DNA of 50,746 bases, taken from the IMG/VR virus record IMGVR_UViG_3300030101_002247, positions 8,326 to 59,071 of that record. One strand, given 5' to 3'. A model generated the notes under the pieces. It ran no database searches. It saw nothing but the letters and a program-made list of their open reading frames with translations, and was not told where the DNA came from. Positions 432 to 42,420 of the stretch are shown one piece after another (positions within the stretch are counted from its first letter, which is position 1; each line of letters begins with the position of its first letter). The translations under genes were made by a program, and so were the position numbers. This stretch comes from a virus.

Positions 432-433
432 CT

Positions 434-13774: not shown

Positions 13775-16700
13775 TTATTTATTACTAAGCTCACTCTTAT
13801 CTACGTCAGCGTTAGCAGCGTATAGGTTAAACTTATACCTTGATGCATAAGCCTCGCCTGAGTATATGTCTGAGCTATTAGTTGTTAGGGTTGTCATCAT
13901 ATACTGACCCTTCATCCTCTCACCCTCTACGTTACCATTCTTCACTATAAATAGGAACCCTATAATATCTACAGGAGGGCTATAAGACTCAGCCTTCACA
14001 AAGTGTACAGTAGTCCCACGACCCCAAGCGTATCCTAAAAATACAGTGCTTCCGTCTTCTTTTTGAAGATACAACTTGTAGTCTGTTGATATAACACTAA
14101 TATTGTTATCTTCTATTGCGTCAAAGCTAGCTTTTTTAGTATATGTAAACACGTCTCCTACACTAGTCACTCCAAATTGTGATAAACTGCTAACGTCAGA
14201 ATCTCCAAGACTATATAAAGCATACTCAGCACCAACAATCATTGAACTTGGTTTAACCTTTGCTGGATTAATTAAACTATATCCAGGAGCTCCAGTTAAA
14301 CTACCAAGGTTATTAGAAATAACAGTAGAGCTAGGCTCATTTACTGACCCAACACCAAAAAACTCTGACCCATCACCATGTTCATTAGTGTATGATAATG
14401 CTACATCTCCTCTAGGGTTAGACTCAACAAATGGAATGTTAGCGTACTGTACACCCTCCTTTGTCTTGTAGTCTATAACCTCCATGTAAGAGTTTTCAAG
14501 AATAAGCGTAGCGTGGTCAGACAATCTTAAAATTGAGTTAGACACCACAGCAGAAATTAATCTAGTAACAGAAGTGTATCCTCCTTCAGGAGTTGTTCCC
14601 CATATCCTAACAATATCACCCTTTTTAACATCCTCAAAGAATTTAGTGTCAGTACCAAATATTCGAGTATCCTCAACAACGCCTTCATCATAATTATTTA
14701 TAAGACCATCAACCTTTTTGTATCCTATCTCTGTATCTATTGTTGTGTCATAACCCATTTCAAGAAGTCCTAAACCTCCACCAACTGTTTGTCCAATATT
14801 GGTATACATAGAAGTAAAAAACTTAGAGTCACTCTCTAGAGATATAGCGTTGTAAGACTTTACAGAAGATGGCTCTATATTAAATGGAAACTGTATTGTA
14901 GAGTCATACTGAGCGTCATATAAGTGGTTGTACTTATACTGCCAATTACCAGGACCTGTGTGTAATTTTTGATAGCCCCTATCAGTCATGTTATGTTTAT
15001 ATAACCTACCATTTTTAAACCCTATAAACTGTCTACCTACTCTAGCATAGTAGTCTGGGTAGAAGTCATAGAAAGATGTCCATCTATTTGTTCTCTCGTT
15101 AAACGCAATAGTCTTAGCACTAAAGATCTTTTTAAGTCTATTAGATTTAGATCTGTAGGTTTCATAATCTGAATCCCAGAAAGTTTTACCATTACCCCAA
15201 GAGTATTGATTTGCTTCATAAACATCAGGGAACGTAACTATATACTCGTCATACTTAGGATCGTACCCAGCAACAATATTAAATACGTTTTCTTTTTGAT
15301 TCTCAGGATCGTTAATAACATACATCTCTCCAAGGTCTCTGAAGTAATCCCTCATACCTTGATCAGATATAACTGTAAGACCATCGTTAGATAACCTTAA
15401 AACAGACCCTCTCTTAATATCTACAAAGTAGAATCTATTACCAAACTTAGAAATACTCTCAGGTTGTAAACAACAACCATACTCTCCTGAGTATAAGGAT
15501 ACGTAGTTATCTATAACTCTATTAGATAAAGATACTAATCCCTCTCCAGAGGCTGTTGTTAGTATATCTTTCTGAACTAGAACTCTACCAACTTTATTCT
15601 CGTGGAATATAAGTAGGTCATCGTCCTTCATCATTAAAGACTGTATAGAACCAAAGTTTTTGTTATAGTCGTAGTATGGTATATTAGCTAAGTTAAAGTT
15701 AGATAACCCATTTATAGAACCAGTACTAGAGTACGTCTCTGAGTAGTATACAGAAGCCTCTAAGTGTCTCTCTGCAGCGTTATTGTTAATAACGTTTATT
15801 CTACCCTTACTATAGTGATTTGTTCTATGGAAATCGTTAAGGTAATAATCCTCAGGGAAGAACGTTTCAGAAGAAGCTCCAGTAGTGGAGGTCGACATAG
15901 TTCTTGCCTTAAGGTATATATCTCCTGACTTTATGTTTATAGATGACGGAGTACTAGAAATATCAACATTCAATTCTTTATTAAATGTATAGTCACTAGT
16001 TTGGTCAGCATCACCAGAGTGAGACCTGTTACCCTTACCTGCGTTTATAATAGGGTATTTTTCACCTATCTCGTAGTAGACCATCAAGTCCTCATCAAGA
16101 TTTCTCTTAGGTCTATATATCTCCACTATAAGATTCTCATAACCAGTACCATCTACGGTAGTTGATACCCCAGCGTGTGATAAATCTACAGGACCAGATC
16201 CTGTGTTAACTGAAGTACTTTCAGGGTCGTTTATTCTAATGTAGAACCCTGAAATAGGGTCTGATGAAGCATTAAATGGTTCCCCATCCTCGCCAACATA
16301 AAGATCATCACCAGCAATCTCTAAGTCTACATACTCTGTAAATTTCTCTCTACCAGAGCCAGGGTCAAAACTTATAAATCTAACTCTATCACCCTTAACA
16401 AAGTTGTAGTCTAACTGAGAGTTGTTAGACTCGTTGTAACTCCATCCCTCACCCTTTAAAGATTGAAGGCTTAAATATATCTGTTTATCATTAGAATCAT
16501 CTGAAACCTTTGCATTTACAACAGTCATCTGTATAAACTCATCTACCGTAGTGTTACCTGTGTAATACATCTGGTAGTGTGTAGCCCATCTAGGAGGTTT
16601 ATTGTATATGTTAAAATTAACACTAGATGACTCACTTAAATCAGGACCTGAGGTTTCTGAGTAGAACTTATTGTAAGGTCTCGTACCATTAAAGTTTACA

Positions 16701-19700
16701 CCAAATAAATCTTCTCCACCAGTAGTTGGGTTGTCAACCTGCACAAATCCATAGTCAGGAGCAACGTTCACAAATGAACATCTGTTAGTCTCGTCAAAGT
16801 AAGCTACACCAAAGTTATGGAAAGCACCTGTTTTAAAAGATGATAATCCACCATCACCTTGTGTGAATGTAGAGTTATTTGTACTACTAAAGTCTCCATT
16901 GTTTAAGTTAAAAACAAGAGTTCCATCAGCGTTAGGTCCGTAATTAAACTCAATTGTTAAAGTTTTTGCACTACTACTATAGCTTGATGTAATACTGCTT
17001 CCATTGTTACCAATAAATTCAACGCTATTAAAGTCATCACTTACATAAGCCTGCAGGAATGTTCCTACTTGGTCAATACTTGTAAAACCAGTAACATCAA
17101 GAGGTCCAGTAGAGTACGACCCATCTCTATCTACCCCTCCTTTATTAAAACTCCAGGAGTAGTTTATCATCAACTGTTGATTTATATCTGAGCTTAAAGA
17201 CAAACTAGATAAGTCAAACTTAATAGTGTGTCTAGTGTGACTTGAACCTCCAGCTATTTGAAATTGACCTACAATACCTGGTCCATCTACACTAAAATCA
17301 AAGAAATTAGTCATATCATCCAACCACCCAGATAGAACAGGTATTGATGTGCTATCAGATGTTAAGGTTACAGACCCATCATTTGTAAAGTTAGATTTGA
17401 TAATCATCTTAGTGTTATCATACCCCTCTACAACATTACCATAAGCAATTCTATTATTTGATAGTATTGTTTGAGCTTTAGCCTTCTTAGGTACAGCATC
17501 GTATAACTTATCAGAATCTACCTTATCTACAAATGGATACGTACCATTGTTGTAGAATGAAAGTACAGAATCTAAGTCAGTGTATTCATACTCACTATTT
17601 GCTATAACTTCATTCTTTAACTTTTTAAGGTAAGTTATAAAGTTATTTGGTATAGTATCTACGAGGAAAAACTCTCCATCGTTACCTTTCCTAGCTACAA
17701 TCTCTATAGTATCAACATCAGGTGTTGCATCATCATAGGTAATGCTAATCTTGTTAGCCATATCTAAGTAATTACTAGCACTAACTACTGAGTTTAAAGC
17801 AAACGCAGGGTCAATGAATACATCTGATATAGGACTGTATGATGTAAATTCCTCATCAACATGTAAGTACCTGTACTTAAACTGAAATACGTTATCAAGA
17901 ATGTTATTTGTAGCTATATCAGAGTCAACAGATAATTCTGTTGTAGGCTTGTGTGTAGGTTGATACTTTACAGCATCTAAGTACTTAGCCTTCTCTATAG
18001 TATCTCCAAAGCTAACCAAAGGAGAGTAAGCTCCTTCAGGGTTAACATGAAGTATCACCCCTGGTAAAGCAGTAAATGTACCTGCCCAAGGACACTCAGT
18101 TATTAATCCTCCTACGTTTATATCAGATTGATTTTGAAGAGGGTTAGCAAATGGAGCACTTGATGTTGTTTCTTGATTGTACGGAGTAGTTAAAGTAATT
18201 GTAGAACCACTTACAGATGCTACCTCGTAGTAATAAGGAAAGTTTGTTGAAGTACCTGAAATCATCTCTTCAATCCCTATAAACTGCCCTGCAGACAAGT
18301 CTCCAAAGTCATCAGTAGGATTACCATCAGCTCCATAGACTACAACAGCAGCATCACCTTGAGTAACCTTCAGTGTTACACCATCCTTTAGTTTAGGTAT
18401 AACACCCGTAACCTTAGTATACCCATTATTCCCCTCTACCCCAGGTAAGGGAGTACTTTGATTAATCTGAGTGTAGATATGGTCACCAATCTCAAACCCA
18501 TGGTTATCAGATACCCCTATAAATACACTACTTTGATTATTATTGTAATATACATCTTCAAACGTAGTGGCGTTTTTAATATTTACCTCGTTAGCCTTAG
18601 CTAGTTCTACGTTTATTTTTCTAGGTCTGTTAAAATTGTCTGTCCAGTAAAGTATGTCATCAACTTTATTAATTCCTGTTATTAGAAACTTCTGACTAAA
18701 GTTTAGTATGTTGTTATGGGTTCCCGTAGTAGATGGTCTACCATCTTGGTACACTGTTACAATTTTATCTTTTAGTAAGTCGTACTCTAGAATACAGTCT
18801 TGTTTTCTACTATTTATATCTTTACTACAAATAAAGTAGTATACACGACTCTTAGGTTTATCCTCATAAGATCCAACACACTTCCAGTTAAACATAGATG
18901 AGTCTATAGATGTAGTAGTAGTTATTCCAGTAGAGAAACTCTTAATCATTTTTCTAGTCGATCCCTCGTGAGTTCTTGTGATATCAGACTCTTCAGGATT
19001 TTCCTCTATAGTAGAATCTCCAGCAATATACTCAACAAAACAATCTAATCTAAGACTTCTAAGAGCTCTATTATCTGCATCTGGGTAAAGACTACCTGAG
19101 GCTAAATTATTTGAGCTCAAAATTGTATTCTCAACCTCAGGGAAACTAGCTAAAGTATATACTGCATTAGGATTATTAGGACCTACAATAACATTTTCTT
19201 CAAGAGAACCATTTATATAGAAACCAGTAGTAGATCCAGATAAAACTTCTATCTGAACCTGAGTACCATGAGTTATAGGTTTAGTAATTGAACCACTAGT
19301 AAAAGTCTGATTCTCTAACCAAGTAGATACGTTCTCTGAGTCTAATTGACCCCCTGCCTCACCAACAGCATTGCTTGAGTTATTAGGAAAGGTATTATTA
19401 TGTATTAACTCACCACCAGTAAGGTAAGTTATTTTATAAGATTCAAACTCATCAGCACTAACATTATACTTATAAATTAAAATAGCATTTTGATCTGGAT
19501 ATTTTACAAAAGTAAAATCAGGGCTTAAGATTGTATTACTTGGAGCATTATTTCCAATAAGTGAATTGTATGATGCAGAAAAACCATAGTTATTATCATG
19601 AAACAGATTAGAGCCAGCAGAGTTAGCTATAATACTTACAAGACCTGGTTGGTTACTAGAAGATATAATATCATTTGAATTAATTGATACAGCCTCAGAA

Positions 19701-22700
19701 AAGTCATTACTAATCCTTGATATAGCTAAATGCCCTATACCTAATCCATAGCCGTAATTGTTCACATAAGAGTTTCTAAAAATATCTGCTATACTTCGAG
19801 TATTAAGATCTGGAATATTACCTACATAAGTGAAAATATATTTATCGTTAGCTGATGAAGAGTCAAAATCAAAGGTAGTAGTTACCTCTGCTAGTGCATT
19901 ATTTAAAGTTTCTTCAAGGGTAGAGATTTGATTGTTTAATTGATCTGTAACATCATTAAAGGAACTCACAAAATTATCTATATCACCTTGAGTAATATTA
20001 GATATACTTGATAAATTTTCTATAGTTTCATTTGATATGTCTTGATAAATAGATACACCAGTTAATAAGCTTTCTATATAACCCCAAAGAAGAGTTACAT
20101 CTGCAGCTAAGGCTTGATTATTTTGATTATTTTGTACATTAGCTGCACTAAGATCTCCAATTTGTGCTTGAAAAGCTACATTAAAAAATTCTAAATTTTC
20201 ATTCTCAGCTACTAAAGTATCATAATCCTCTTGGCTTACTACGCCTCCACTTGAATTTATTATCTGTATGCTATCTAGTTGAGCTTCAAATTCTTCAATG
20301 CTAGTCTCTAGAGTAGAGATTAATTCAGTGTTTGCATCTATAGTTTCTTGATCAGAATCAGTCTGAGCATTTAACTCATCATTTAAAGTTTGAGCCTCAA
20401 GTAATGATTGGTCAGCAGTGTCTAAAGCATTCTGTACTGCTGTATTATAAGTAGTTACAGCAGCGTTAATATCACTACTAGATGTAGATGAGTAATCAGG
20501 TAAAGTAAATGCATCCACCTGACTTATAAGGCTTTGAATATTATTATTTAGGCTAGATATATTTTCAGATATAGTTAATTCAGTATTATAATTAACTCCT
20601 ATACTATCAGCTAGGGATGTTGTATTAGATATTATATCATTTATCTCTGTTGTTATCTCTGAGATACTATCCTGCAAATCAGAATCTGTAACAGTTATCC
20701 CTTCTAAAATCCCTACCGAACTAGATGAAGTTCCTAATAAGCTATCAAGGGTTGATAAGATATTGTTGTACGCATTAGCCCAGTTTATATCAGTATCAGA
20801 AAGAGATTGATTTACAACAGTTAATTCATCCTGTGCTTCAGTAGCTGCAGTTTCAGCAGCATCTAATTGATTTTCTAAATCTAAAAAGTCATTTATGGTT
20901 GCTAAACTTATCTCCTCTAGGACTACGTTGTCTATTGAAACATTTACCTCTTTAGTGTGGTTTGTTATAAAAAGGGAAGTACCTGCAGCTTCGTAGTACT
21001 CTATAACACTATTCCCTGTAGTAAATCCTGTTCCTAAAGAAACATAAGTAGCACCGTTGAAATATTTCATCTCTGCAGATGTCGGATCCCCTGTAGAGCC
21101 TACAACGCTAACAATATCAAAGGAAAGTCTATAAAATTTTCCACTCTCCACTATACTTGAACTTTCATCCGAAGTGTATGCTTGAACTGCTGTTACTTCA
21201 CCTGATTCAGGTATTCTTGGTCTATCAAGATTTAAAACTCCACCAGAGATAGAAACACTACCAGATGAAGCATCAGGGTGAGGAAGCCACCCCTGAGTAC
21301 CGTCAAGAGTTTCGTTATCGAAGCCCCCGTTAGTAATTAAATTAGAGCCTACAGCATTAGCTACAGCAGTCTCTAAACCCTGTATTTCTAAGTCAAGTTC
21401 ATTTATTAGATTATTTAATGAAACAATATCTTGAGCGTTTGTATTAGCACTAGCTAAAGCTTCTGTTAGTTGAAGATTTACTGAATCATATTCAGTCTGC
21501 AAAACATCATTTGCTGTAATTAAAGTATCTAACTCAGCTTGTAAAGTAGCTAAGTCAGCAGCAGCCTGAGTAGAGTCAGCATCAAAGTCAGCTTGTAAAG
21601 CATCAAGTGCATCTATATGCTCAAGAGTTAAGTTTGATATTTCAGCTTCTAAAGTTGTTATAGTATTCTCTAAAGAAGCTATAAGCTGCTCAAGAGCTAC
21701 AATATCTACATTATCATTCAACCCAACGCCTGTAGAACTGTAAGGTATTAACTTAGCACCTACACTCCCATCAATAAATCTTATCGAAGCTTCAGGAGGC
21801 AACCCATCTTCTAAGTTTTTTTTAACTTGTTCTTCACTAGTTCCAAAACAAAGATTAAAATCATACCTACGACTACCTTGTATTAAAACTTGTAATTTAC
21901 TATTAGGCTCTTCGTACTCTGATATTGTAAGACCTGTAATCTCTACTTTATCTGTATCTGTAGTAAAGGCATTATCAATAACAAAACTAAACTTATTAAC
22001 GTTCTCCTCTGCTGTAAATGTGCATTCTATAGACTGACCTTGTGTTGAAAATGGTTGGCTAATAAGTTTTCCTAACTTAAAAGATATACTATTAGAAGCC
22101 ACCATAGTAGTTAAAACACCCTGGATTCTGTAACTTTTACCTTTTACTATATTTGCAGGGAAGAAAAACTCTTCTTTCGCAGTCACACTCCTTCCAGTTA
22201 TGGTGTAAACATTACCTTCTAGAGTTGCTTCTGACGGTAAATTTAAAGGTACTAAATCAATTTTAGAAACATAATTTTTTAGCAAGTAATAAAAACTAGA
22301 ATCTGCTCCTTCAGTATCTGAGCTTTTAGGTCTAACTGAATTAAGTCTAGTGCTTTGATTAAAACCAGTTATAATATTATAACGTGATCTAAGAAGTATT
22401 TGCTGACCTAAACTAGTCTCTAATACTGGAGACTCAAAATTTGTAAATTTATCAACTAAAGCTTCAGCAATATTATTTTGAGAAGCGTCAAACTCATACT
22501 CATCTCCTGTATCAAATTTACCAGACCCTATCTCTGCAAAAGGAAGTACATTAAAGCTACCATCAGCATTTTCATTATAAGAAAATATAGTAGTACCAGT
22601 AACATTCTCTGGAGTTGTAGGCTCAACACCTTCAAACTCTAATAGTATTTGAGTAACCCCGTCAGAAGAAGAAGGGAAGTCACCAATAGGAGACCCATCC

Positions 22701-23470
22701 TCACTAGTCAAGTCATTAACAGCATCAGTAACACCAAAGTCATAAGCAGAACTTAAAATCATAGTTCCAGCATTCTGAATAAAAAGATGACCGTCAGGAT
22801 GAAGTGAGCTTATAGTTGAAGACCAAGTTTGATTAGTTTCAGCACTATAAGAGCTAAAAAAGTTTAACTCAAAGTCTATTCCTGGATTGTCAGCAATAAT
22901 CTCTATTTCTAGAATAAAACCCCCAGTGCTCATCGAAGGAACCCCACTATTAAAGTTTAAAGTTTCTTGGTTTACGTGAGCAGTACTTAAATCTCCTGTA
23001 TTTTTATTTACAATAGTTATATTCTCACTAAGAGAGCCACCAGGACCAAACTTACCAAACAAATACTCTGTAGTATTAGTCCCTGCTGAGTTACCATACC
23101 AGTCAAGTGTAATTCCTTCATCAGATAAAGTACCATTGCTATCAATATGATTTACTATAGTAAAGTTGTATTTAAATCCATTTAACTCCCTCCCAGTAAG
23201 AATAATTTTTTGAGAGTATAGTGTTGAGGATGGCTCTACGTCAGTTATGAATCCACTTTCATCATGCGTAGTTATTTCGTTTATTTCTGATCCAGGAAAG
23301 TTATGTATAACCTCTTCAGTTCCCTCAATGTTCTCTACAGAACCTGAAGTGCCATCAGATGACGCAACGTTTCTAATATTCTCTGCGTGTCTATAATCAC
23401 CATTTTTTATCAGGCGAGGTTCAGAATCTTTATCCATCCCACCTGTAAATATTCTCTTATCTTGTGCCAT
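13775..23470 (-). CDS. 3231-aa tail stabilisation / muzzle-like protein with inserted coiled coils and carbohydrate-binding-like module
   Basis: The start (MAQDKRIFTGGMDKDSEPRL, then NGDYRHAENIRN) and the conserved ILYWTDNFNRPRKINV block in the middle are typical of the large stabilisation or muzzle protein of crAss-like and related Bacteroidetes podoviruses, which forms the end of the short tail. Compared with those proteins, usually well under 2000 residues as I recall, this one is greatly enlarged. Residues about 590-705 and 857-1190 are long Leu/Ala/Glu/Gln coiled coils. Between them lies a jelly-roll-like module (NLITNGGFDNETLDGTQGW ... SIDNVVLEEI, about 708-855) that looks like CBM4/9-type carbohydrate-binding domains. 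The rest is Ser/Thr/Asn-rich beta structure. It follows the 386-aa gene by 6 nt. The family call is good; the receptor-binding idea is inference. Confidence 0.75.
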   Translation of the reverse strand: MAQDKRIFTGGMDKDSEPRLIKNGDYRHAENIRNVASSDGTSGSVENIEGTEEVIHNFPGSEINEITTHDESGFITDVEPSSTLYSQKIILTGRELNGFKYNFTIVNHIDSNGTLSDEGITLDWYGNSAGTNTTEYLFGKFGPGGSLSENITIVNKNTGDLSTAHVNQETLNFNSGVPSMSTGGFILEIEIIADNPGIDFELNFFSSYSAETNQTWSSTISSLHPDGHLFIQNAGTMILSSAYDFGVTDAVNDLTSEDGSPIGDFPSSSDGVTQILLEFEGVEPTTPENVTGTTIFSYNENADGSFNVLPFAEIGSGKFDTGDEYEFDASQNNIAEALVDKFTNFESPVLETSLGQQILLRSRYNIITGFNQSTRLNSVRPKSSDTEGADSSFYYLLKNYVSKIDLVPLNLPSEATLEGNVYTITGRSVTAKEEFFFPANIVKGKSYRIQGVLTTMVASNSISFKLGKLISQPFSTQGQSIECTFTAEENVNKFSFVIDNAFTTDTDKVEITGLTISEYEEPNSKLQVLIQGSRRYDFNLCFGTSEEQVKKNLEDGLPPEASIRFIDGSVGAKLIPYSSTGVGLNDNVDIVALEQLIASLENTITTLEAEISNLTLEHIDALDALQADFDADSTQAAADLATLQAELDTLITANDVLQTEYDSVNLQLTEALASANTNAQDIVSLNNLINELDLEIQGLETAVANAVGSNLITNGGFDNETLDGTQGWLPHPDASSGSVSISGGVLNLDRPRIPESGEVTAVQAYTSDESSSIVESGKFYRLSFDIVSVVGSTGDPTSAEMKYFNGATYVSLGTGFTTGNSVIEYYEAAGTSLFITNHTKEVNVSIDNVVLEEISLATINDFLDLENQLDAAETAATEAQDELTVVNQSLSDTDINWANAYNNILSTLDSLLGTSSSSVGILEGITVTDSDLQDSISEITTEINDIISNTTSLADSIGVNYNTELTISENISSLNNNIQSLISQVDAFTLPDYSSTSSSDINAAVTTYNTAVQNALDTADQSLLEAQTLNDELNAQTDSDQETIDANTELISTLETSIEEFEAQLDSIQIINSSGGVVSQEDYDTLVAENENLEFFNVAFQAQIGDLSAANVQNNQNNQALAADVTLLWGYIESLLTGVSIYQDISNETIENLSSISNITQGDIDNFVSSFNDVTDQLNNQISTLEETLNNALAEVTTTFDFDSSSANDKYIFTYVGNIPDLNTRSIADIFRNSYVNNYGYGLGIGHLAISRISNDFSEAVSINSNDIISSSNQPGLVSIIANSAGSNLFHDNNYGFSASYNSLIGNNAPSNTILSPDFTFVKYPDQNAILIYKYNVSADEFESYKITYLTGGELIHNNTFPNNSSNAVGEAGGQLDSENVSTWLENQTFTSGSITKPITHGTQVQIEVLSGSTTGFYINGSLEENVIVGPNNPNAVYTLASFPEVENTILSSNNLASGSLYPDADNRALRSLRLDCFVEYIAGDSTIEENPEESDITRTHEGSTRKMIKSFSTGITTTTSIDSSMFNWKCVGSYEDKPKSRVYYFICSKDINSRKQDCILEYDLLKDKIVTVYQDGRPSTTGTHNNILNFSQKFLITGINKVDDILYWTDNFNRPRKINVELAKANEVNIKNATTFEDVYYNNNQSSVFIGVSDNHGFEIGDHIYTQINQSTPLPGVEGNNGYTKVTGVIPKLKDGVTLKVTQGDAAVVVYGADGNPTDDFGDLSAGQFIGIEEMISGTSTNFPYYYEVASVSGSTITLTTPYNQETTSSAPFANPLQNQSDINVGGLITECPWAGTFTALPGVILHVNPEGAYSPLVSFGDTIEKAKYLDAVKYQPTHKPTTELSVDSDIATNNILDNVFQFKYRYLHVDEEFTSYSPISDVFIDPAFALNSVVSASNYLDMANKISITYDDATPDVDTIEIVARKGNDGEFFLVDTIPNNFITYLKKLKNEVIANSEYEYTDLDSVLSFYNNGTYPFVDKVDSDKLYDAVPKKAKAQTILSNNRIAYGNVVEGYDNTKMIIKSNFTNDGSVTLTSDSTSIPVLSGWLDDMTNFFDFSVDGPGIVGQFQIAGGSSHTRHTIKFDLSSLSLSSDINQQLMINYSWSFNKGGVDRDGSYSTGPLDVTGFTSIDQVGTFLQAYVSDDFNSVEFIGNNGSSITSSYSSSAKTLTIEFNYGPNADGTLVFNLNNGDFSSTNNSTFTQGDGGLSSFKTGAFHNFGVAYFDETNRCSFVNVAPDYGFVQVDNPTTGGEDLFGVNFNGTRPYNKFYSETSGPDLSESSSVNFNIYNKPPRWATHYQMYYTGNTTVDEFIQMTVVNAKVSDDSNDKQIYLSLQSLKGEGWSYNESNNSQLDYNFVKGDRVRFISFDPGSGREKFTEYVDLEIAGDDLYVGEDGEPFNASSDPISGFYIRINDPESTSVNTGSGPVDLSHAGVSTTVDGTGYENLIVEIYRPKRNLDEDLMVYYEIGEKYPIINAGKGNRSHSGDADQTSDYTFNKELNVDISSTPSSINIKSGDIYLKARTMSTSTTGASSETFFPEDYYLNDFHRTNHYSKGRINVINNNAAERHLEASVYYSETYSSTGSINGLSNFNLANIPYYDYNKNFGSIQSLMMKDDDLLIFHENKVGRVLVQKDILTTASGEGLVSLSNRVIDNYVSLYSGEYGCCLQPESISKFGNRFYFVDIKRGSVLRLSNDGLTVISDQGMRDYFRDLGEMYVINDPENQKENVFNIVAGYDPKYDEYIVTFPDVYEANQYSWGNGKTFWDSDYETYRSKSNRLKKIFSAKTIAFNERTNRWTSFYDFYPDYYARVGRQFIGFKNGRLYKHNMTDRGYQKLHTGPGNWQYKYNHLYDAQYDSTIQFPFNIEPSSVKSYNAISLESDSKFFTSMYTNIGQTVGGGLGLLEMGYDTTIDTEIGYKKVDGLINNYDEGVVEDTRIFGTDTKFFEDVKKGDIVRIWGTTPEGGYTSVTRLISAVVSNSILRLSDHATLILENSYMEVIDYKTKEGVQYANIPFVESNPRGDVALSYTNEHGDGSEFFGVGSVNEPSSTVISNNLGSLTGAPGYSLINPAKVKPSSMIVGAEYALYSLGDSDVSSLSQFGVTSVGDVFTYTKKASFDAIEDNNISVISTDYKLYLQKEDGSTVFLGYAWGRGTTVHFVKAESYSPPVDIIGFLFIVKNGNVEGERMKGQYMMTTLTTNSSDIYSGEAYASRYKFNLYAANADVDKSELSNK

Positions 23471-33909: not shown

Positions 33910-34183
33910 ACTTCTCTGCAAAAGAGCCTTTGAAATCTTTCTTATCCTCTATTAAGGTCTGACCATCTTTTATTCTATCCTCAAGGTTTTTTATCCCCAA
34001 AAGAATCTCTTGACAGTCTTCAAAACATTCTCTCTTTGCTTTTATTGCTTGTCTTCTCTTTGCATCATCCTCCTCTAGTAAAGGTTTACTTATCTCTTCT
34101 ATAAGAAGATCAATAGCTCCCTTACTCGCTTCTATAAGCCTTTCTAAGGTCTGTAGAGCATAATTCTTATCATTACTCTTCAT
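33896..34183 (-). CDS. small helical protein upstream of terminase, 95 aa
   Basis: Almost entirely charged alpha helix (LERLIEASKGAIDLLIEEIS, CQEILLGIKNLEDRIKDGQT), suggesting a coiled coil. It overlaps the terminase start by 14 bp and the GroES-like gene end by 11 bp, so the three are translationally linked. Position just before terL makes a small terminase subunit possible, but no helix-turn-helix is visible, so I leave the function open. Confidence 0.55.
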   Translation of the reverse strand: MKSNDKNYALQTLERLIEASKGAIDLLIEEISKPLLEEDDAKRRQAIKAKRECFEDCQEILLGIKNLEDRIKDGQTLIEDKKDFKGSFAEKYARK

Positions 34184-34742
34184 ACAGAGCTAATACATCA
34201 AAATTACGCATCCTAAGGAGTTTCATACCATCTATATCCATATCATACTCAGAGTTCTCACTCCACATAACTCTATCTCCTTCTTTTACTCCTTGCTCCT
34301 TCATCCAGTCATTAATAATAACTGCTTTTCCATGAAGCTCAACCTCAGAAGCTGATGTCTCTAAAAGTATTCCAGACTCAGATTGCTCTGGTTCCTTCAT
34401 CTCTTGCTCCATAAAGTTCCAAACACCTACAGGGATATACTCTTCACCTCTTTTGATAAGGTATATCTGTTCTGCAAAAGCTTGATATATGTTATCTTTA
34501 TCAGCATGCTTAACGTGGTTTGTATCTGTTGCCACAAAGTGGTGAAACCAAACCTTATCACCTTCCTGTATCCCTACGTCTTTAGTGTCTTGTATTGGTG
34601 TTTTATACACCGTTCCATACTGTCTTGCTAATCTCATAGGATCGTAAGACGTATCTCTATACAATTCTACACCGTTTAACATTAGTGTGTCTTCTGTCTC
34701 TTTTTCTACTTCTATCCAGTAGAGGTCTTTAATTGGCTTCAT
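34173..34742 (-). CDS. tandem GroES-like co-chaperonin, 189 aa
   Basis: The second half (about residues 120-189) reads as a GroES domain: VIINDWMKEQGVKEGDRVMW, a short acidic loop, then DIDGMKLLRMRNFDVLALYEE, matching the GroES pattern of VKxGDxVLF ... DGxEYLxLRExDILAVxE. The first half (about residues 10-105) shows the same pattern (YGTVYKTP ... VGIQEGDKVWFHHFVA ... EQIYLIKRGEEYIPVG). Phage co-chaperonins such as T4 gp31 replace host GroES to fold the capsid protein, and the location beside terminase and head genes suits that. A two-domain arrangement in one chain is less usual. Confidence is high for the C-terminal domain and moderate for the N-terminal one. Confidence 0.72.
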   Translation of the reverse strand: MKPIKDLYWIEVEKETEDTLMLNGVELYRDTSYDPMRLARQYGTVYKTPIQDTKDVGIQEGDKVWFHHFVATDTNHVKHADKDNIYQAFAEQIYLIKRGEEYIPVGVWNFMEQEMKEPEQSESGILLETSASEVELHGKAVIINDWMKEQGVKEGDRVMWSENSEYDMDIDGMKLLRMRNFDVLALYEE

Positions 34743-35061: not shown

Positions 35062-36609
35062 CTACTCGTATAAATCTCTTGATAATTTAACGTATCCTAC
35101 TTGAATACCTTTGGATGATGCTGCATGAGCCTGCACCCCAATAAAAGGTAATAAGTTTATATCATCTGCAGCAGCTAAAGATTTTTTAGTTTTAACTGTT
35201 TCTCTAACACCACCTGCAGTTGTTGTTATAGGTGTTGATGTTAAACCATATTGAATATTGTTTACAAAAACGCTAATCTTTCTATTCTCGTCAAAAACAA
35301 TACGAAGTCTATATACAGTATTTGCAGCAACTGCAATACCTAAATTTGTAATATAATCTACACCAGAAACGCTGTATACAAAATGTAAATTAGCATTAGT
35401 AGTTAAAGATCCTAGATCATCATCTGATGCGTATAAAAAATAAGCTTGATTTGCATCTGTAACAAAACCTCCATTTGATGTTAGCTTTAAACCAGCAAAA
35501 AATGAAGTATCAGCAATAGAAGATGAAGTAGATATAGCTGTAGAAAATTCTGTTTTATTTTCTGTTCCAAAACCTACAGAAGACCAGGCTGAAGAATCAA
35601 AACCTGCTGGTAACTCAGCATTAGCGTCTCTTGTAGATAATATGGTTTTATCGTTATCTGTAGTACCTGTGATTAATTTTATCCCAGCAAAAGAGCCATC
35701 TCTTCCTATGTTAGCAGATATTTGAGTAGACCCACCGTTAGTACCACTCAAAACAAAGTTTTGATTAGGAGTTATGTAAGGATCTATAATAAAGAATAAC
35801 TTAAATGTTTGGGATACTATGTCGGTACCATTAGTACCAATACGTATCTTACAAGATCCATTTGCAACATCATGCACTAAAACATTAACCATAGCATTAT
35901 CTGCTATTGTTCCTGCATCATGAAGATTCACTAATACCTGTGACGATGTTCCAAAAATATGATTATTAGTAAATGTAAATTCTACAGTATCAGTAGCGGC
36001 TAGGTCTACAGCCTGCATTGTTATAACTCCTAACTTAGCATCAAAAACAACCTCCGATGTAGCACTTGTTGGTTGAGTTACAACAGGATTGTCTAAACTA
36101 GGAATTTTTTCAAACATCTCTATAAGCTCGTACCTATCATCAGATTGAGATAAAGTACCAGATATATTAAGGTTACCACTTTTGTCTAACTTCATCACGT
36201 CTGCACCTGATGTACCAAATGTCATAGAGTCATTAGAGTGATCATAAAATATCTTACCTACATCGTTGTCGTTAGCATCACCAAAGTAAATGTTACCTGA
36301 TCCTGCTGTACCTGAAAGTATAGATAATCCAGAATCTCCTGAGTTTTCTAATATTAACTGGTTAGCAAAAGAACTAGCGGTAACTGATCCAGCACTTACA
36401 GACATAACATGAAGTAAACCATCAGGTTGAGTTCCTCCAGTACCGACCCCTACTTTTAAAAACTCTGCACGATCTGTAGAGAGATTCATGGCAGTAGAGT
36501 TACCGTTACCTGTTTCAACACTTCTAAGGGTTGAGTTTAAAACCTCAGTCCCTGTTTGAAGTATTCTTTGATATGTCTTAGATATAGATTTACCTTTTAA
36601 TGAACCCAT
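35062..36609 (-). CDS. fibre protein with C-terminal beta-sandwich, 515 aa
   Basis: The N-terminus (about residues 1-170) has fibre-like repeated short beta strands with DGLLHVMSVSAGSVT, GNIYFGDANDNDVGKIFYDH and FGTSGADVMKLDKSGNLNIS, a module widespread in marine phage fibres. A short helix (DDRYELIEMFEKI) then leads to a Thr/Ser/Asn-rich beta region of about 330 residues, probably globular and possibly concanavalin-like or jelly-roll, ending GIQVGYVKLSRDLYE. This suggests an attachment-site shaft followed by a receptor-binding head. Whether it is a tail or head fibre is unknown. A second fibre on the opposite strand (45154-46800) shares the LDxSGNL hinge. Confidence 0.7.
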   Translation of the reverse strand: MGSLKGKSISKTYQRILQTGTEVLNSTLRSVETGNGNSTAMNLSTDRAEFLKVGVGTGGTQPDGLLHVMSVSAGSVTASSFANQLILENSGDSGLSILSGTAGSGNIYFGDANDNDVGKIFYDHSNDSMTFGTSGADVMKLDKSGNLNISGTLSQSDDRYELIEMFEKIPSLDNPVVTQPTSATSEVVFDAKLGVITMQAVDLAATDTVEFTFTNNHIFGTSSQVLVNLHDAGTIADNAMVNVLVHDVANGSCKIRIGTNGTDIVSQTFKLFFIIDPYITPNQNFVLSGTNGGSTQISANIGRDGSFAGIKLITGTTDNDKTILSTRDANAELPAGFDSSAWSSVGFGTENKTEFSTAISTSSSIADTSFFAGLKLTSNGGFVTDANQAYFLYASDDDLGSLTTNANLHFVYSVSGVDYITNLGIAVAANTVYRLRIVFDENRKISVFVNNIQYGLTSTPITTTAGGVRETVKTKKSLAAADDINLLPFIGVQAHAASSKGIQVGYVKLSRDLYE

Positions 36610-36610
36610 T

Positions 36611-36997
36611 TTACTTTTTCTTTATTTTCTCTATAGACCTACCTGCAAAATAAGCCCCATATACTGTTATTAATAACGTTTGATATATAGGAATATAGCT
36701 TTCTTGAATTACAAAACCCCCTATATTCCCATCAAATACTGACAAAACTACAAAAATTGCAGTTAAAAATATACATATTAACGGTCTAATATTTTTACTA
36801 AGCCAGTTGTCAGACTTCATATCTGCCTCCCACCTTCTCGATACTTGCTCTTGTGCTTGAGACTCAGCCTTAATGAAAATTTCCTCCATAGCTCTTTTAG
36901 CAGCCATTCTTTCATCTTCAGATGTAGTTAAATTATCTACAACATTTCCAACTTGCTGTATAAGTCCTCCTCCCAATAAGTCTAATATCTTACTCAT
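36611..36997 (-). CDS. holin, 3TM (GTA holin)-like, 128 aa
   Basis: An N-terminal amphipathic segment and charged helix are followed by RRWEADMKSDNWLSKNIRPL, the typical lead-in of the GTA_holin_3TM family, and two clear transmembrane helices (ICIFLTAIFVVLSVF and YQTLLITVYGAYFAG), ending with a lysine cluster. It would permeabilise the inner membrane for the adjacent endolysin. The start overlaps the stop of the M15 peptidase gene (ATGA), forming a lysis pair. Confidence 0.78.
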   Translation of the reverse strand: MSKILDLLGGGLIQQVGNVVDNLTTSEDERMAAKRAMEEIFIKAESQAQEQVSRRWEADMKSDNWLSKNIRPLICIFLTAIFVVLSVFDGNIGGFVIQESYIPIYQTLLITVYGAYFAGRSIEKIKKK

Positions 36998-37461
36998 ACA
37001 TTAGAATTTAATTCAGCGTATCTATATTTAGTATCTCCTTCCTTATCTTTATAAGCCTCTAGGACTTGTTTACGATTATCTTTTTCTTTTAAAGATATAT
37101 GTATCCAAGAGAAATCAAATTCATTTATCATTTGGTCAAACTCTAGTCCTGAATTTAATATCCAATCATAGATAACCTTATTATTCATTTGTCCTTCTCC
37201 CCAAAACTGGAGGTCCAAAGCTTCAGCTTTACTATGTTGGCTGCGATTGCTCCCACCAATAGCACGATTAAGTTCTTTGGAACGATAACCACTACTAATC
37301 CTGATAGGACCAACAGCGTCACGAAGAGGTTGTATAAGACCTGTAATAAGCCTTTGCATGCTCTCCAAATGTTTTTCGGACATCTCATTTTTTATACCTA
37401 ATCTTTTCGCTGTGTTACTGTGCTCTATTTCTGCACGAGAAAAATTTTTACTTAGTCTCAT
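36994..37461 (-). CDS. endolysin, peptidase M15 (D-Ala-D-Ala carboxypeptidase-like), 155 aa
   Basis: Single-domain M15_3-type peptidase: RISSGYRSKELNRAIGGS at about residues 54-71, then the zinc ligands H76 in SQH, D83 in ALDL and H121 in WIHIS. The N-terminal NFSRAEIEHSNTAKRLGI is the usual family start. No signal peptide is seen, so export depends on the holin encoded by the next gene, whose start overlaps this stop by 4 bp. It would cleave peptidoglycan peptides. Well supported. Confidence 0.88.
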   Translation of the reverse strand: MRLSKNFSRAEIEHSNTAKRLGIKNEMSEKHLESMQRLITGLIQPLRDAVGPIRISSGYRSKELNRAIGGSNRSQHSKAEALDLQFWGEGQMNNKVIYDWILNSGLEFDQMINEFDFSWIHISLKEKDNRKQVLEAYKDKEGDTKYRYAELNSNV

Positions 37462-37469
37462 AATTTAAT

Positions 37470-37811
37470 TTAAAATGCCTCCATTACTATTTCATCTATA
37501 GAGTTTTGTACGTCCTTAAGAGTAGCCTCCATAGTCATCATAATATTAGCTTGAAATCTTTTTACTTCTTCGTTGTTGTTAAATATAACAATAGTAGGAA
37601 CAACTACTATCTTATACTCTTTAGACCATCTTGAGTCTGCTGTTATATCTACTCTTTCTGTATCGCAATCTGTAAGTTTTGATAACCAGGTTACTTTGTT
37701 GGCTTCATTAAAACTTGCATTAAACTCAACAGCAACCATCCCATCAGGAAAATCTTGTGAACATGCAATTGTTGATAAAAGTAGTGTGGATATATAAATT
37801 ATCCTTTTCAT
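37470..37811 (-). CDS. exported thioredoxin-like protein lacking CxxC, 113 aa
   Basis: An N-terminal signal (MKRIIYISTLLLSTIACSQ) contains a Cys that could be lipidated, though the -3 residue is not ideal. The mature part has thioredoxin-fold features: a strand VAVEFNAS, helix, VDIT strand, and the cis-proline turn VVVPTIVIF followed by NNNEEVKRF. The CxxC site is absent: the sequence after VEFNAS is FNEANKV, although a lone Cys occurs at TDCD. It is therefore probably not a redox enzyme and may serve as a binding or folding module. It sits between the endolysin and small membrane proteins; the start overlaps the upstream stop (ATGA). Confidence 0.6.
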   Translation of the reverse strand: MKRIIYISTLLLSTIACSQDFPDGMVAVEFNASFNEANKVTWLSKLTDCDTERVDITADSRWSKEYKIVVVPTIVIFNNNEEVKRFQANIMMTMEATLKDVQNSIDEIVMEAF

Positions 37812-38110
37812 ATCGCTATTTTAATAGTTACTACACCCAAAGTACTTCCTATTGTATTTGCTAACATGTCGTTCCAATCAGGATTCCCATGTTTTCTATC
37901 GTATATTTCTTTACCTGCGCCAATAAACATTGAAACTGCAAAACCAGATAATAAAGAACATTTTTTGTTTTTAGTTTTGTCATATACTAAAGATGCAATT
38001 GTAGAGCTTATAACATAACTTCCACCCATGTGTAAAAGCTTGTCGTTTTGTATTACTTGTGCTTTTGCTATTGCTGTCATAAATAGTATAATCCAAAACA
38101 GTTTTATCAT
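37808..38110 (-). CDS. exported small membrane protein, DUF2279/YfiM-like, 100 aa
   Basis: Signal peptide or first helix MIKLFWIILFMTAIAKAQ with an AKA-Q cleavage site, then NDKLLHMGGSYVISS, a hydrophobic segment, GAGKEIYDRKHGNPDWNDML and a last hydrophobic stretch. The DKxxHxxGS ... GKExxDxxxGNPDWxDxxAN pattern resembles YfiM/DUF2279-type envelope proteins. It is coupled by 4-bp overlaps to both neighbours, within a lysis and envelope block. A spanin-like or envelope-targeting role is possible but unproved. Confidence 0.55.
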   Translation of the reverse strand: MIKLFWIILFMTAIAKAQVIQNDKLLHMGGSYVISSTIASLVYDKTKNKKCSLLSGFAVSMFIGAGKEIYDRKHGNPDWNDMLANTIGSTLGVVTIKIAI

Positions 38111-38391
38111 TTTAAATTATCTATTTTTTCTTCAAGACGCAACATATGCCCCTTAATCTCTGTTACGTCTTCTTGAGTAGACATAATTGTTTGTCTAATA
38201 AGTTGATCTTTCATATCATACTCCATACGAGTAATCTCAGGGTCAAGGGGTAATGGTAGATCTTTAGCCTCTGCTATATCATTCTGCAAGGTAAACCACA
38301 TACCAACTAGTGTAAATATAAGAACTGCTATACCAGCTAAAGTTTTTAAACTTATATTAAATGATGTCTCTTCGCTTAATTCTTTTGCCAT
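38107..38391 (-). CDS. small single-pass membrane protein with coiled coil, 94 aa
   Basis: One transmembrane helix near residues 15-36 (LKTLAGIAVLIFTLVGMWFT) is followed by a charged helix (MEYDMKDQLIRQTIMSTQED ... RLEEKIDNLK) with heptad-like spacing. Such N-anchored coiled-coil proteins near the endolysin may act as inner-membrane spanin or holin-related proteins. The stop and the next start share ATGA. I recognise no named family. Confidence 0.55.
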   Translation of the reverse strand: MAKELSEETSFNISLKTLAGIAVLIFTLVGMWFTLQNDIAEAKDLPLPLDPEITRMEYDMKDQLIRQTIMSTQEDVTEIKGHMLRLEEKIDNLK

Positions 38392-38393
38392 AA

Positions 38394-39488
38394 CTAAAAT
38401 ATTACGTAATTAATTCCAACACTAAAGTTGTGCCACCTTCTATTCCAATACTTATTATACTTACCTTCTATAAATATACCTAAACTTTTATTAAATCTAT
38501 ACCCAAAGATTAAACCCCCTGAGTAATCAACCCATTGACCGTTATTAAATTCGTAGTAGGAGTAAGCACTCTTAGTATTTACGTGATAAGGCATAACATT
38601 ACCCCAGCTATGTAGCCAAAAATCTTTTGTAAAGTGATAATAGTCAAAACCTAGTACAAAAGAGTACTCTACAATATCTTTTAAAGAGTTTCTTTGTTTT
38701 TCTACATAATTATTTATAACTTCAGGTATTACAACCTCTTCCCATACTTCTTGACTGTTGGCTACAAGAGTTCCGTTAGGTGAAAAATATTCTCCCCCCA
38801 GGTTGATGTTGTATCCTTCTTGTAGAGCCAGGTATGTATAATGTAAAGTACCATTATCTAATACCCAGTCTGCTAAAGGGTCAAATCCGTAAGGTTCGGC
38901 AAGTCTTTGTACTAGACCCCCGTTAAGCGAAAGCTTGCCTTCCCTTACCTTTAATCTATATCTTTGTGACGCTTCAAAGTATTTAATATCAGCAAATCCA
39001 TCTTCTAAATACTCTATCTTACCAACCCAGTTGTCAGCAACATATCTTACAAAGTGATGTTGATTAGTATAGTTAACACCTAATCGTCTTACAAAGTCAG
39101 CCTCGAATAAGTACTCAAAACCGTCAACTCTACCTATAGTGGCAGCATCGCTGTAAGATCTTTCTGTACCGTTATAAAAAGTATTAGCTCTGTTCTCATA
39201 CCCAAAGCGTTTTATCTTTCTAATTCCTATAGATAATGTATAATCAAAAGGCGTTACAATCACATCCTCTTCTAATGTACCTGAAGTTACTGACCATATT
39301 TGATCGTCAGATAATGATGTACCACCATTTACTGCAGCGTAAAACGTAGAGTACTTGAATATTTTATGTAACCCTTGAGCATTACATGTAGAAATTCCTC
39401 CAAAAAATACAACAAAGAATAAAATTAACATTACCCAGTATGAGATGTATGCAGTACTAGGTTTTATTTTATCTATAAATTTTTTCAT
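38394..39488 (-). CDS. outer-membrane beta-barrel-like protein, 364 aa
   Basis: An N-terminal hydrophobic segment (YWVMLILFFVVFFGGISTCNAQ, about residues 17-38) looks like a signal peptide with a Bacteroidetes-type AQ end. The rest has no long hydrophobic helices and instead many alternating aromatic/polar strands (FDYTLSIGIRKIKRFGYE, FEYLFEADFVRRLGVNYT, FEASQRYRLKVREGKLSLNG). The C-terminus is FSVGINYVIF, with the terminal Phe typical of outer-membrane barrels. Its ATG overlaps the stop of the T9SS-targeted surface protein gene by 4 bp, so the two are likely made together. I see no PorP/SprF signature. Acting as an anchor or as a surface modifier is inference. Confidence 0.6.
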   Translation of the reverse strand: MKKFIDKIKPSTAYISYWVMLILFFVVFFGGISTCNAQGLHKIFKYSTFYAAVNGGTSLSDDQIWSVTSGTLEEDVIVTPFDYTLSIGIRKIKRFGYENRANTFYNGTERSYSDAATIGRVDGFEYLFEADFVRRLGVNYTNQHHFVRYVADNWVGKIEYLEDGFADIKYFEASQRYRLKVREGKLSLNGGLVQRLAEPYGFDPLADWVLDNGTLHYTYLALQEGYNINLGGEYFSPNGTLVANSQEVWEEVVIPEVINNYVEKQRNSLKDIVEYSFVLGFDYYHFTKDFWLHSWGNVMPYHVNTKSAYSYYEFNNGQWVDYSGGLIFGYRFNKSLGIFIEGKYNKYWNRRWHNFSVGINYVIF

Positions 39489-41896
39489 CTCTTTAATACT
39501 TTTTTGTCGCTAGTTACTCCTTCGTATGTAACACTAAAATTGTACACACCTGCAGGTAGCAATCCTACATCTAGTTGATTTAATCCTTCATTAGTTTGAG
39601 ACTCTTTAACTTGGATAACAAGTTTACCTAAAACATCATACACCTCGATACTCACAGGACCGTTTGTTAATACGTTTAATACATCCCCCATAGGGTTAGG
39701 ATATATAACTACATCATTACCTCTAAGTAAATCTCTAGTATCTAATGGGCTATCCCAGCTACAGCTCCAATACAATGCTTGACATTTTTCATCCCAATCA
39801 GTATTACAGCAATAAGGGTCTACCATAATTACCCAAGCGTAACATGTATCATTCAACCAATAAGGATCTCCTGGTTCACCTATACAGCCTGCATCATACA
39901 AGCAGCTCCCATCATCTGTATTATATATTAAGTTGTAGTTTTCTGCTGCTGGATCCATACAACCTTCTAGTACTTCTATGCACCCTCCATTATCTGTATT
40001 AGCAAGAGAGTCATAGTTAAAAGCGTTTTCATCTGTACATCCATAAACTACATCAATACAAGAAAAATCTTCTGTATTAGCTTCTAAGTTGTAATTAAAA
40101 GCACTAGGATCTGTACAACCATAGGTTATAGGTATGCAGGACTCGTTATCTGTATTAGCAACAGGATCGTAATTAAATGCAGTAGTATCAGTACACCCAA
40201 ATATAAAAGGGATACAATTATCACTTGCTGTATTCGCTTCGTCATTATAATTATACATTGTAGGATCCATGCATCCTATTATAACGGGGATGCAGCTACC
40301 GTCATTTACATTTGCATCTACTTCAAAGTTAAACGCAAAAGGATTAGTACATCCAGGAACAGGGTATATACAGTTATCATTGTTTACATTTGCAGTGCTA
40401 TCATAATTAAGAGCTAATTCATCTGTACAGCCAAAGTATAAACATGATTCATCTGCTGTGTTAGCATCAGGGTTATAATTCCAAGCCTGAGTACTCATAC
40501 AGCCAACAATTACAGCCTCACAAGTTTCATCATCAACGTTAGCGTCTTCATTATAGTTAAATGCTAAATCGTTAGTACATCCTAATATAATCTCTATACA
40601 ATCACCATTTTCTGTATTAGCATTAGGGTTGTAGTTTAAAGACTCTTCGTCTAGACACCCATATACTGTAGGTATACAGTAATCACCACAAAAAGGTAAG
40701 GCACTATATACATTCCAGAAAGGTGGTTTATAAGGCTGTAAAGCTCCAGCACCATTATCTGCAAATGGAAAAGCACCTCCTTGCAAGGTAATAATATCGT
40801 GTGAGTTTATTAATGTAAATGAGTTATGCATAGTCTGGAAAGCAACTTCTGCAGGAGGAGTTTGAGGGCTAGCTATTTCAAAGTAATAAACTTTAACAGC
40901 TTTGTCTGTCTCTAATACTATATCAAACTCTTGAGAGTATTCTCCAGGTCCCATAGTATAAGTGCCAATAATACTATCTTCTTGCACAACCCCTATGTAA
41001 GAGTCACCCCAACCATCTCCACCGTCATCCTCTATAATAAGAGTGTAGTTACATGTTGGTATAATTTCGTTTAGCGTGGCTTCTGGATTGTAGTTAAATG
41101 CACCTGGATTTACACAACCTAAGGTATGAAGCGTTTCGCAGCTACCATCATCAAAGTTAGCTTCAAAATCAAACTCTACATAAGTATTATTAGTGCAACC
41201 TTCTATTATAGGTATATCACATTGTTGTAACCATATAGGACCTGAGTATGCAGCACCACCAAAGTTAGCCTCTGGTAAAACCCATAGGGTGTCTAAACTA
41301 CCACAAGGTTGTGCGTCACCTAGTATAATAAAGTTACCATCTGAACCTCCCCATAAAGATCCTTCTAAACCATCACCATATATATCACTTAATATAAGTT
41401 CTACACCTGTTTCTGGTACACACAAGTCGTATATAATAGTTTGGTTAGCTTCTCCGTAAGAATACTCTCCTGCGACTACATTAGCTACAGGTTGACCGTT
41501 AGATAAGTCTGTTAATATCCATCCAGTCTCTCCAGGGAATTGATCTAGAGTAATTTCAAAAATCATCTTGGCTTCACCGTCAGAACAACTAACGCCTACG
41601 CAACTTTCATCATCAAGCTCTGCCCAAGGGTTAAAGTTAGGTGCTTCAGGGTCAGTGCATCCATATATACCTTCAGGTAAAGGTATCTCGCAGTCACCCC
41701 CATCATAAGCAAACTCTTCACAATCAAAGTGTATAGGGTTTCCTTCCCAGGAATAAGAACCATCATCGCAGTATCCATCACCTAACCAATTCTGTGGAGA
41801 TGGAACTCCATTACAATCTACAAATAAACTATCTTGAGAGTAAGCACTTAGTGTAATAAGAGCTAATAACCAGGTTAATTTTTTTAACATTTCCAT
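39485..41896 (-). CDS. T9SS-secreted cysteine-repeat surface protein, 803 aa
   Basis: A signal peptide (MEMLKKLTWLLALITLSAYSQ; the second ATG at 41890 is an alternative start) is followed by a Notch/LNR-like cysteine module (residues about 27-69, with WLGDGYCDDG and DCEEFAYDGGDC). Thirteen repeats of the form GCTDPxAFNYNPxANTDDGSC follow, the last ten nearly back to back at about 413-665. After them comes a four-Cys block (DPYCCNTDWDEKCQALYWSC). Residues about 727-803 are a T9SS type A sorting domain: VVIYPNPMGDVLNV, VSIEVYDVLGKLV, LPAGVYNFSV and KKVLKR at the end. This is the architecture of secreted adhesins of marine Bacteroidetes, here inside a phage late operon. The phage presumably uses the host T9SS to place it on the cell surface. 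Confidence 0.85.
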   Translation of the reverse strand: MEMLKKLTWLLALITLSAYSQDSLFVDCNGVPSPQNWLGDGYCDDGSYSWEGNPIHFDCEEFAYDGGDCEIPLPEGIYGCTDPEAPNFNPWAELDDESCVGVSCSDGEAKMIFEITLDQFPGETGWILTDLSNGQPVANVVAGEYSYGEANQTIIYDLCVPETGVELILSDIYGDGLEGSLWGGSDGNFIILGDAQPCGSLDTLWVLPEANFGGAAYSGPIWLQQCDIPIIEGCTNNTYVEFDFEANFDDGSCETLHTLGCVNPGAFNYNPEATLNEIIPTCNYTLIIEDDGGDGWGDSYIGVVQEDSIIGTYTMGPGEYSQEFDIVLETDKAVKVYYFEIASPQTPPAEVAFQTMHNSFTLINSHDIITLQGGAFPFADNGAGALQPYKPPFWNVYSALPFCGDYCIPTVYGCLDEESLNYNPNANTENGDCIEIILGCTNDLAFNYNEDANVDDETCEAVIVGCMSTQAWNYNPDANTADESCLYFGCTDELALNYDSTANVNNDNCIYPVPGCTNPFAFNFEVDANVNDGSCIPVIIGCMDPTMYNYNDEANTASDNCIPFIFGCTDTTAFNYDPVANTDNESCIPITYGCTDPSAFNYNLEANTEDFSCIDVVYGCTDENAFNYDSLANTDNGGCIEVLEGCMDPAAENYNLIYNTDDGSCLYDAGCIGEPGDPYWLNDTCYAWVIMVDPYCCNTDWDEKCQALYWSCSWDSPLDTRDLLRGNDVVIYPNPMGDVLNVLTNGPVSIEVYDVLGKLVIQVKESQTNEGLNQLDVGLLPAGVYNFSVTYEGVTSDKKVLKR
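39902..40660 (-). repeat. ten tandem ~75-bp repeats coding GCxDxxAxNYNxxANxxDxxC units
   Basis: Ten consecutive units of about 25 residues inside the surface protein gene, each beginning Gly-Cys and ending in Cys, with a central NYN/NYD and ANT/ANV. The units differ at many bases, so the array is old or diversified rather than a recent amplification. Three further, more spaced copies lie closer to the N-terminus. Two Cys per unit suggest one disulphide per repeat outside the cell. Confidence 0.85.
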
Positions 41897-42420
41897 CTTC
41901 TTCGTGCTTGTCTGATTCTTGAGTTAGGATCGTTTTGAGTCTTTTGGCTACTTCTCTTTAGTTGACCAAGAGATCTAGCACAGTATGACTTTCTTCTTTT
42001 AGCTCTTTTACCTTTAGGTTTATCTTCAGTTACAGCAGTTTGAAGTTTACTTCCAGGGTTAGCACGTCTGTAAGCCTTAACTCCTTTTGCAGTCATACCA
42101 GCTCCAGACTTAGTAGGTCTAAAGTTACCAGATTTAATACTGGTCTTTATCCCCATGCCTTTTTTTGCTTTTTTTATTGCTTTCACCTTTTTCTTTTTAT
42201 ATCTAGAGACTCTACCTTTAGTATCTTTCTCTATTTGAGCTCTACGTTTTTCACCAGGAGATAATTCACTCCAAGTAGTAGGCGTGTCTTTTGTTATTCT
42301 CTTGGTAGGGCGAAAAGTATTTTCTCCACCCTCGTAACCTTTCTTACCTTTAGGTGTACGCCAGTTTTCTTTAAACCAGCGTTTAAGTCGTAAACCTGCT
42401 GCTGTCTTTCTAACTGCCAT
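41884..42420 (-). CDS. basic phage protein with DUF6321-like C-terminus, 178 aa
   Basis: Very rich in Lys and Arg. The N-terminal part has GLRLKRWFKENWRTPKGKKG. The C-terminal part has MTAKGVKAYRRANPGSKLQT, KRAKRRKSYCARSLGQLKR and DPNSRIRQARRRWKC, the pattern of DUF6321-type proteins common in marine phages. No enzymatic motif is seen. Nucleic-acid binding, perhaps as a virion-packaged or DNA-condensing protein, is likely from charge. It overlaps the surface protein start by 13 bp. Confidence 0.65.
   Translation of the reverse strand: MAVRKTAAGLRLKRWFKENWRTPKGKKGYEGGENTFRPTKRITKDTPTTWSELSPGEKRRAQIEKDTKGRVSRYKKKKVKAIKKAKKGMGIKTSIKSGNFRPTKSGAGMTAKGVKAYRRANPGSKLQTAVTEDKPKGKRAKRRKSYCARSLGQLKRSSQKTQNDPNSRIRQARRRWKC

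Follow-up and report, generated by a model that had tools for sequence, protein, structure and literature searches.

In Flavobacterium johnsoniae, type A cargo of the type IX secretion system (T9SS) is collected from SprA by the general shuttle PorV, and in characterised type A proteins the C-terminal domain (CTD) is the secretion signal (PMC12618676). The type B cargos of this organism, known or predicted to be adhesins, depend on PorP/SprF shuttles whose genes often follow immediately (PMC12618676). Among phages, three T9SS type A genes have been reported from Cryophage, a Bacteroidetes phage; Bellas et al. 2020, who described them, suggested superinfection exclusion and called the case unique (PMC7468147). 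An earlier note on the DNA studied here, made from its letters alone, had called phage use of the T9SS hardly described, a fair statement given that Cryophage is the one published precedent found.

In the present study we analysed a 50,746-nt stretch of an IMG/VR virus record (IMGVR_UViG_3300030101_002247, positions 8,326 to 59,071), hereafter the window. As in Cryophage, a type A sorting domain is found on a phage gene; however the Cryophage cargo genes are variable (endoglucanase, GH39, PA14), unlike the repeat cargo found here, and the excerpted description mentions neither a partner barrel nor a conserved cassette (PMC7468147). At our locus the cargo, an outer-membrane barrel, a 94-aa protein and a thioredoxin (Trx)-like protein form a conserved cassette, a larger point absent from the earlier note. 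A search of open-licence PMC papers yielded no account of a conserved cargo-barrel cassette in phages, and a T9SS-cargo cassette with its own barrel appears to be new. The features are as follows, with the basis of each assignment in brackets.

39485..41896 (-): T9SS type A cargo, 803 aa, ATG start (sorting models and predicted fold)
41834..41896 (-): signal-peptide-like N-terminus of the cargo, residues 1-21, ending ...AYSQ before D (sequence pattern)
41690..41815 (-): four-cysteine module, residues 28-69 (cysteine positions; LNR-like by eye only)
39902..40660 (-): array of ten GC...C repeats, residues 413-665 (cysteine positions)
39761..39889 (-): PYW/CC...WD..C block, residues 670-712 (cysteine positions)
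39488..39730 (-): T9SS type A C-terminal sorting domain, residues 723-803 (models and seven-strand fold)
38394..39488 (-): phage-specific outer-membrane barrel, 364 aa (12 strands predicted)
38107..38391 (-): 94-aa protein, one apparent TM helix and a periplasmic coiled coil (topology read from sequence)
37808..38110 (-): optional cassette member, DUF2279/YfiM-lipoprotein-like (model matches and comparison of loci)
37470..37811 (-): periplasmic thioredoxin-fold protein with a signal-peptide-like start (weak model matches)
36994..37461 (-): M15 peptidase endolysin, adjoining the cassette (profile match)
36611..36997 (-): holin, GTA_holin_3TM and phrog_3427 (profile match)

The cargo and its sorting domain

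Sequence models, the predicted fold and conservation lend good support to the view of the earlier note that this ORF encodes a type A cargo for the T9SS of the host. Neither of the two outcomes that the note named as refuting it was observed, and the protein is a predicted secretion substrate. Its last 80 residues, read there as a sorting domain, score above the curated cut-offs of both Pfam PF18962 (Por_Secre_tail; residues 731-800, E=1.7e-11, 44.7 bits, cut-off 27) and NCBIfam TIGR04183 (residues 731-803, E=4.7e-11, 42.5 bits, cut-off 23). The type B model TIGR04131 gave no match in the cargo at E<=1 (NCBIfam), and the cargo is the sole PF18962 match within the whole 59,071-base viral record. 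In an AlphaFold2 model from a 36-sequence alignment (mean pLDDT 70 overall), residues 729-802 form seven strands with a pLDDT of ~73-90. Among the best PDB matches of this domain in Foldseek are 8glk_D (NucA; TM-score by target 0.76), the mirolase CTD 8qb1, 8gl6_D (RemA) and 8glj_D (FspA), and the NucA, RemA and FspA substrate domains were solved within T9SS complexes; phmmer likewise links the cargo to 8glk_D (E 0.008).

Relatives with divergent CTDs (L060, L064, L032, L041, L066 and L068) still lie above the TIGR04183 cut-off, suggesting that selection keeps the sorting signal. A second cargo lineage (L074 at 7512-9818, L076-L079, L293, L304, L313, L314, L326 and L328) has the repeats and the CC...WD..C block followed by a shortened C-terminal tail (LGRP...FIYxDGxVxKK) ending ...VTDILGRPTKIIKNKLLLFIYSDGSVNKQILKK. 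This tail is not recognised by the CTD profile, L074 and L078 fail TIGR04183, and hhalign of the tail against the CTD gave a probability of 32% only. A host protein in L094 ends like the same tail.

The putative signal peptide of the cargo, MEMLKKLTWLLALITLSAYSQ followed by D, is assigned by pattern only; residues 2-17 are helical in the predicted model, and a signal-like start of this style is common to most cargo relatives with a readable 5' end. The cargo contains 42 cysteines. Exactly thirteen GC...C repeats were counted, the number given in the earlier note, three of them outside the ten-repeat array at residues 79, 233 and 260, and the CC...WD..C block reported with them is also present (residues 670-712). 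The LNR-like identity proposed for the N-terminal module was not borne out, the LNR (Notch) model being without a match at E<=1; the module has four cysteines and the usual LNR has six. The gene immediately upstream of the cargo encodes a highly basic protein of 178 aa (DUF6321/DUF5872; 41884-42420, minus strand) and often adjoins the cassette in relatives.

Host Flavobacteriales proteins share GCTDPxAxNYNPxANxDDGSC repeats with the cargo, the best host matches reaching 46-56% identity. Such host matches are confined to the repeat region, whereas the N-terminal domains of the phage cargos found matches solely in phage-like contigs assigned to MAGs. Cargo-like repeats occur in 58/246 Flavobacteriales genomes at E<=1e-20, a count in which one genome (G001) is matched best by a phage-like contig, and SprA is encoded by 8/8 tested repeat-rich genomes of this order. 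GC...C repeats are also present near the C-terminus of very large ORFs that lie near the cassette in bigger phages (L012, 2-5773; L022, 3-6074; L039, 2-7030; L061, 2-7018), which shows that the cargo is not the only protein to bear the repeat.

The outer-membrane barrel and the cassette

The barrel gene lies directly downstream of the cargo, its start overlapping the cargo stop by 4 nt in the window. The predicted model shows 12 strands (mean pLDDT 72) with an insertion of ~75 residues (198-271) between strands 7 and 8. This layout resembles the type B pairs of F. johnsoniae, in which an outer-membrane protein gene directly follows that of the secreted protein (PMC12618676), but differs from PorP/SprF pairs in that the CTD is type A and not TIGR04131, the barrel has no PorP/SprF match and the pair is phage-borne. 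No convincing Pfam or NCBIfam match was obtained for the barrel, and the PorP/SprF families were absent among the matches of 46 barrels in Pfam and of the window barrel in NCBIfam. Fold alignment points to outer-membrane barrels in general: with VIA-align generic barrels score Z 9-11 and the T9SS chain 8gl6_F, at 10.2, is tied among them. A PorV/PorP fold was considered but is not singled out by these scores, 8gl6_F being no better than generic outer-membrane proteins. Other phage groups also encode barrels (porin-like entries in BFVD), and the viral entry A0A516LKJ4 shares the fold of ours (E=1.3e-23, 21% identity).

At least 582 IMG/VR stretches encode the barrel family. Among 50,697 annotated phage records, tblastn found no match to the barrel at E<=0.01 and none to the cargo at E<=1e-5; the CTD alone gave weak matches only against phages (best E 0.1). 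A scan of GTDB contigs returned just six barrel matches. Three of them (L082-L084) have the cassette on phage-like contigs binned into MAGs, two (L085 and L086) are partial and L087 looks chimeric; a host origin of the barrel was rejected on these grounds. The MAG placements of L082, L083, L084, L085 and L086, all phage-like contigs bearing the barrel, are probable binning errors, and the labels include the archaeon Nitrosopelagicus and one Maricaulis.

The earlier note had proposed a test of whether homologues recur at the same locus in related phage contigs, and synteny of the cassette was found across about 100 loci. Relatives of the cargo occur in 82 viral stretches, most of them in a similar setting, and the quartet recurs together in most of 104 non-redundant loci. 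Searches seeded with the barrel, the Trx-like protein and the 94-aa protein each reached at least hundreds of contigs and returned the same quartet in most loci; it was complete in 64 and 60 newly fetched loci, and among 25 incomplete loci most are interrupted by contig ends. Among 141 non-identical barrels of the main subfamily, 137 are accompanied by a cargo (CTD and/or repeats) and 139 by both small genes, proportions which describe close relatives because the searches were seeded from cassette members, closest relatives first. Repeats and CTD share one ORF in 113 cases, the CTD stands alone in 14 and the repeats in 10; the four barrels without cargo lie near contig ends and are flanked by little sequence on one side or both. 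The cargo is upstream of the barrel in 125/137, and the 4-nt stop/start overlap is exact in 88/125 of these. Three divergent barrels (L278, L295 and L330; 32-35% identity to the window barrel) keep both small genes, but no cargo was recognised in the 4.9-6.3 kb available to either side, so that the remaining triad may function independently. The L330 locus encodes a small signal-bearing protein ending ...DLLGREVKPIQGFYLATDGVLTRKVYINEAK.

Phage, host and evolution of the cassette

The window, from a marine phage, carries tailed-phage genes for a terminase (phrog_6681), a portal (phrog_6547) and a capsid (SU10_MCP). The terminase matches 129 phage records, all at <60% identity and mostly from Flavobacterium (including Elemovirus), uncultured and Cellulophaga phages, and the hosts of the nearest isolates are Bacteroidota (Flavobacterium, Cellulophaga and Maribacter). 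As the terminase relatives lie among phages of Bacteroidota, we infer that the host is a T9SS-bearing member of this phylum. In MW202828, Maribacter phage Panino and elemoE, the closest three relatives with annotation, no T9SS gene is annotated near the terminase, and TIGR04183 is unmatched in their whole records. The window also encodes a GroES-like co-chaperonin (34173-34742, minus strand), such genes being annotated in Panino and elemoE as well, and a PhoH-like ATPase (419-1090, plus strand). On its minus strand, two giant ORFs (1583-11158, 3191 aa; 13775-23470, 3231 aa) are almost without Pfam match, the only one being a weak match to DUF3293 in the 3191-aa ORF.

Judged by sequence identity, the cassette crosses phage lineages with very different terminases: in L034 and L049-L052 the barrel is 80-86% identical to that of the window and the terminase only 49-57%. 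Other carriers have a ribonucleotide reductase or different virion genes nearby. Purifying selection acts on most regions of the cassette, omega being mostly 0.03-0.3 in the barrel, the small genes and the parts of the cargo and rising higher here and there in small segments; the L025/L026 cargo was left out of the dN/dS analysis, as its omega of ~1 despite near-identical barrels probably reflects ambiguous bases. Mean pairwise distances (0.43 for the N-terminal part of the cargo, 0.50 for the CTD and 0.23 for the barrel) indicate that the cargo is the fastest-evolving member, and repeat number varies among cargos. The partial correlation of the barrel is higher with the CTD (r 0.35) than with the N-terminus (0.10), although linkage alone may explain this difference because the CTD physically adjoins the barrel gene.

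Proposed role in infection

We propose, with a probability of about 0.72, that these genes form an envelope-remodelling cassette, in which a T9SS-exported cargo and its partner barrel alter the cell surface late in infection. In this mechanism the cargo would be exported by Sec and then cross the outer membrane through the host T9SS (SprA translocon, PorV shuttle). This would bring a disulfide-rich repeat protein, possibly the adhesin proposed in the earlier note, to the infected cell's surface or its surroundings. The barrel would most likely be the surface partner or anchor of the cargo, comparable to PorP/SprF for type B cargo. Since type A cargo of F. johnsoniae uses PorV, a cognate barrel should not be needed for secretion (PMC12618676), and the type A signal together with a barrel unrecognised by PorP/SprF models makes it more likely that the barrel anchors or positions the cargo than that it secretes it. 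The coiled-coil and Trx-fold proteins would probably complete a trans-envelope assembly or help to fold the cargo. Late expression is suggested by the position beside lysis and structural genes. The likeliest benefit would come from changes to the surface of infected cells or of their debris, by receptor masking, superinfection exclusion or aggregation. We infer actual secretion, contact between cargo and barrel, and benefit to the phage; these phages probably rebuild the surface of the infected cell late in infection. More tentatively, the genes may constitute a self-contained display cassette, where the hijacking type A cargo, a dedicated barrel anchor and an inner-membrane link would build one trans-envelope structure.

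The two small genes also bear on a different reading. The topology of the 94-aa protein is that of an inner-membrane, i-spanin-like protein, by reading, and its matches in PHROG are weak and of unknown function only. The matches of the Trx-like protein to thioredoxin families are weak and fall below curated cut-offs; the protein has no CXXC, and one of its cysteines is near-invariant. The earlier note had located the cargo beside fibre and lysis genes; the lysis genes are there (M15 endolysin and holin), while the neighbouring fibre gene is at most putative, the ORF at 35062-36609 matching an unknown-function PHROG only. That the barrel, coiled-coil and Trx-like proteins serve as a lysis module, disrupting the outer membrane in the manner of a spanin, with the cargo contributing an extra component outside the cell or binding debris, is consistent with the adjoining M15 endolysin and 3TM holin, with the i-spanin-like topology and with the occurrence in L278, L295 and L330 of a triad for which no cargo was recognised. 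We nevertheless consider this unlikely, since no o-spanin lipoprotein or fusion domain was recognised, no M15/holin gene was detected near the triad in L030, L054, L066 and L155, and a T9SS-exported repeat protein is not needed for lysis.

Much less probable still is a virion adhesin, that is a cargo carried on the particle whose CTD binds the T9SS attachment complex of the host as a receptor. Some of the very large ORFs with similar repeats (L012, L022 and L039), whose function is not assigned, are possibly tail proteins; however the cargos have signal-peptide-like starts and are linked to envelope genes and not to tail genes, and in those type A proteins that have been characterised the CTD directs secretion (PMC12618676). 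Despite the host-like CTD and repeats, capture of a host gene without benefit to the phage is scarcely credible in view of the purifying selection, the synteny among phage genes at about 100 loci and the six GTDB barrel matches (three with the cassette in phage-like contigs, the rest partial), and an assembly chimera is ruled out by that synteny and by a second contig (L002) carrying the cargo identically.

Envelope remodelling, our preferred reading, raises the questions of whether infection needs a working T9SS, whether other phages are excluded and whether a dedicated barrel can serve a type A cargo. The presence of the barrel family in so many IMG/VR stretches suggests that the cassette may be common. 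If the proposal is true, many marine phages would exploit a secretion machine of their host during infection, with an outer-membrane partner of their own.
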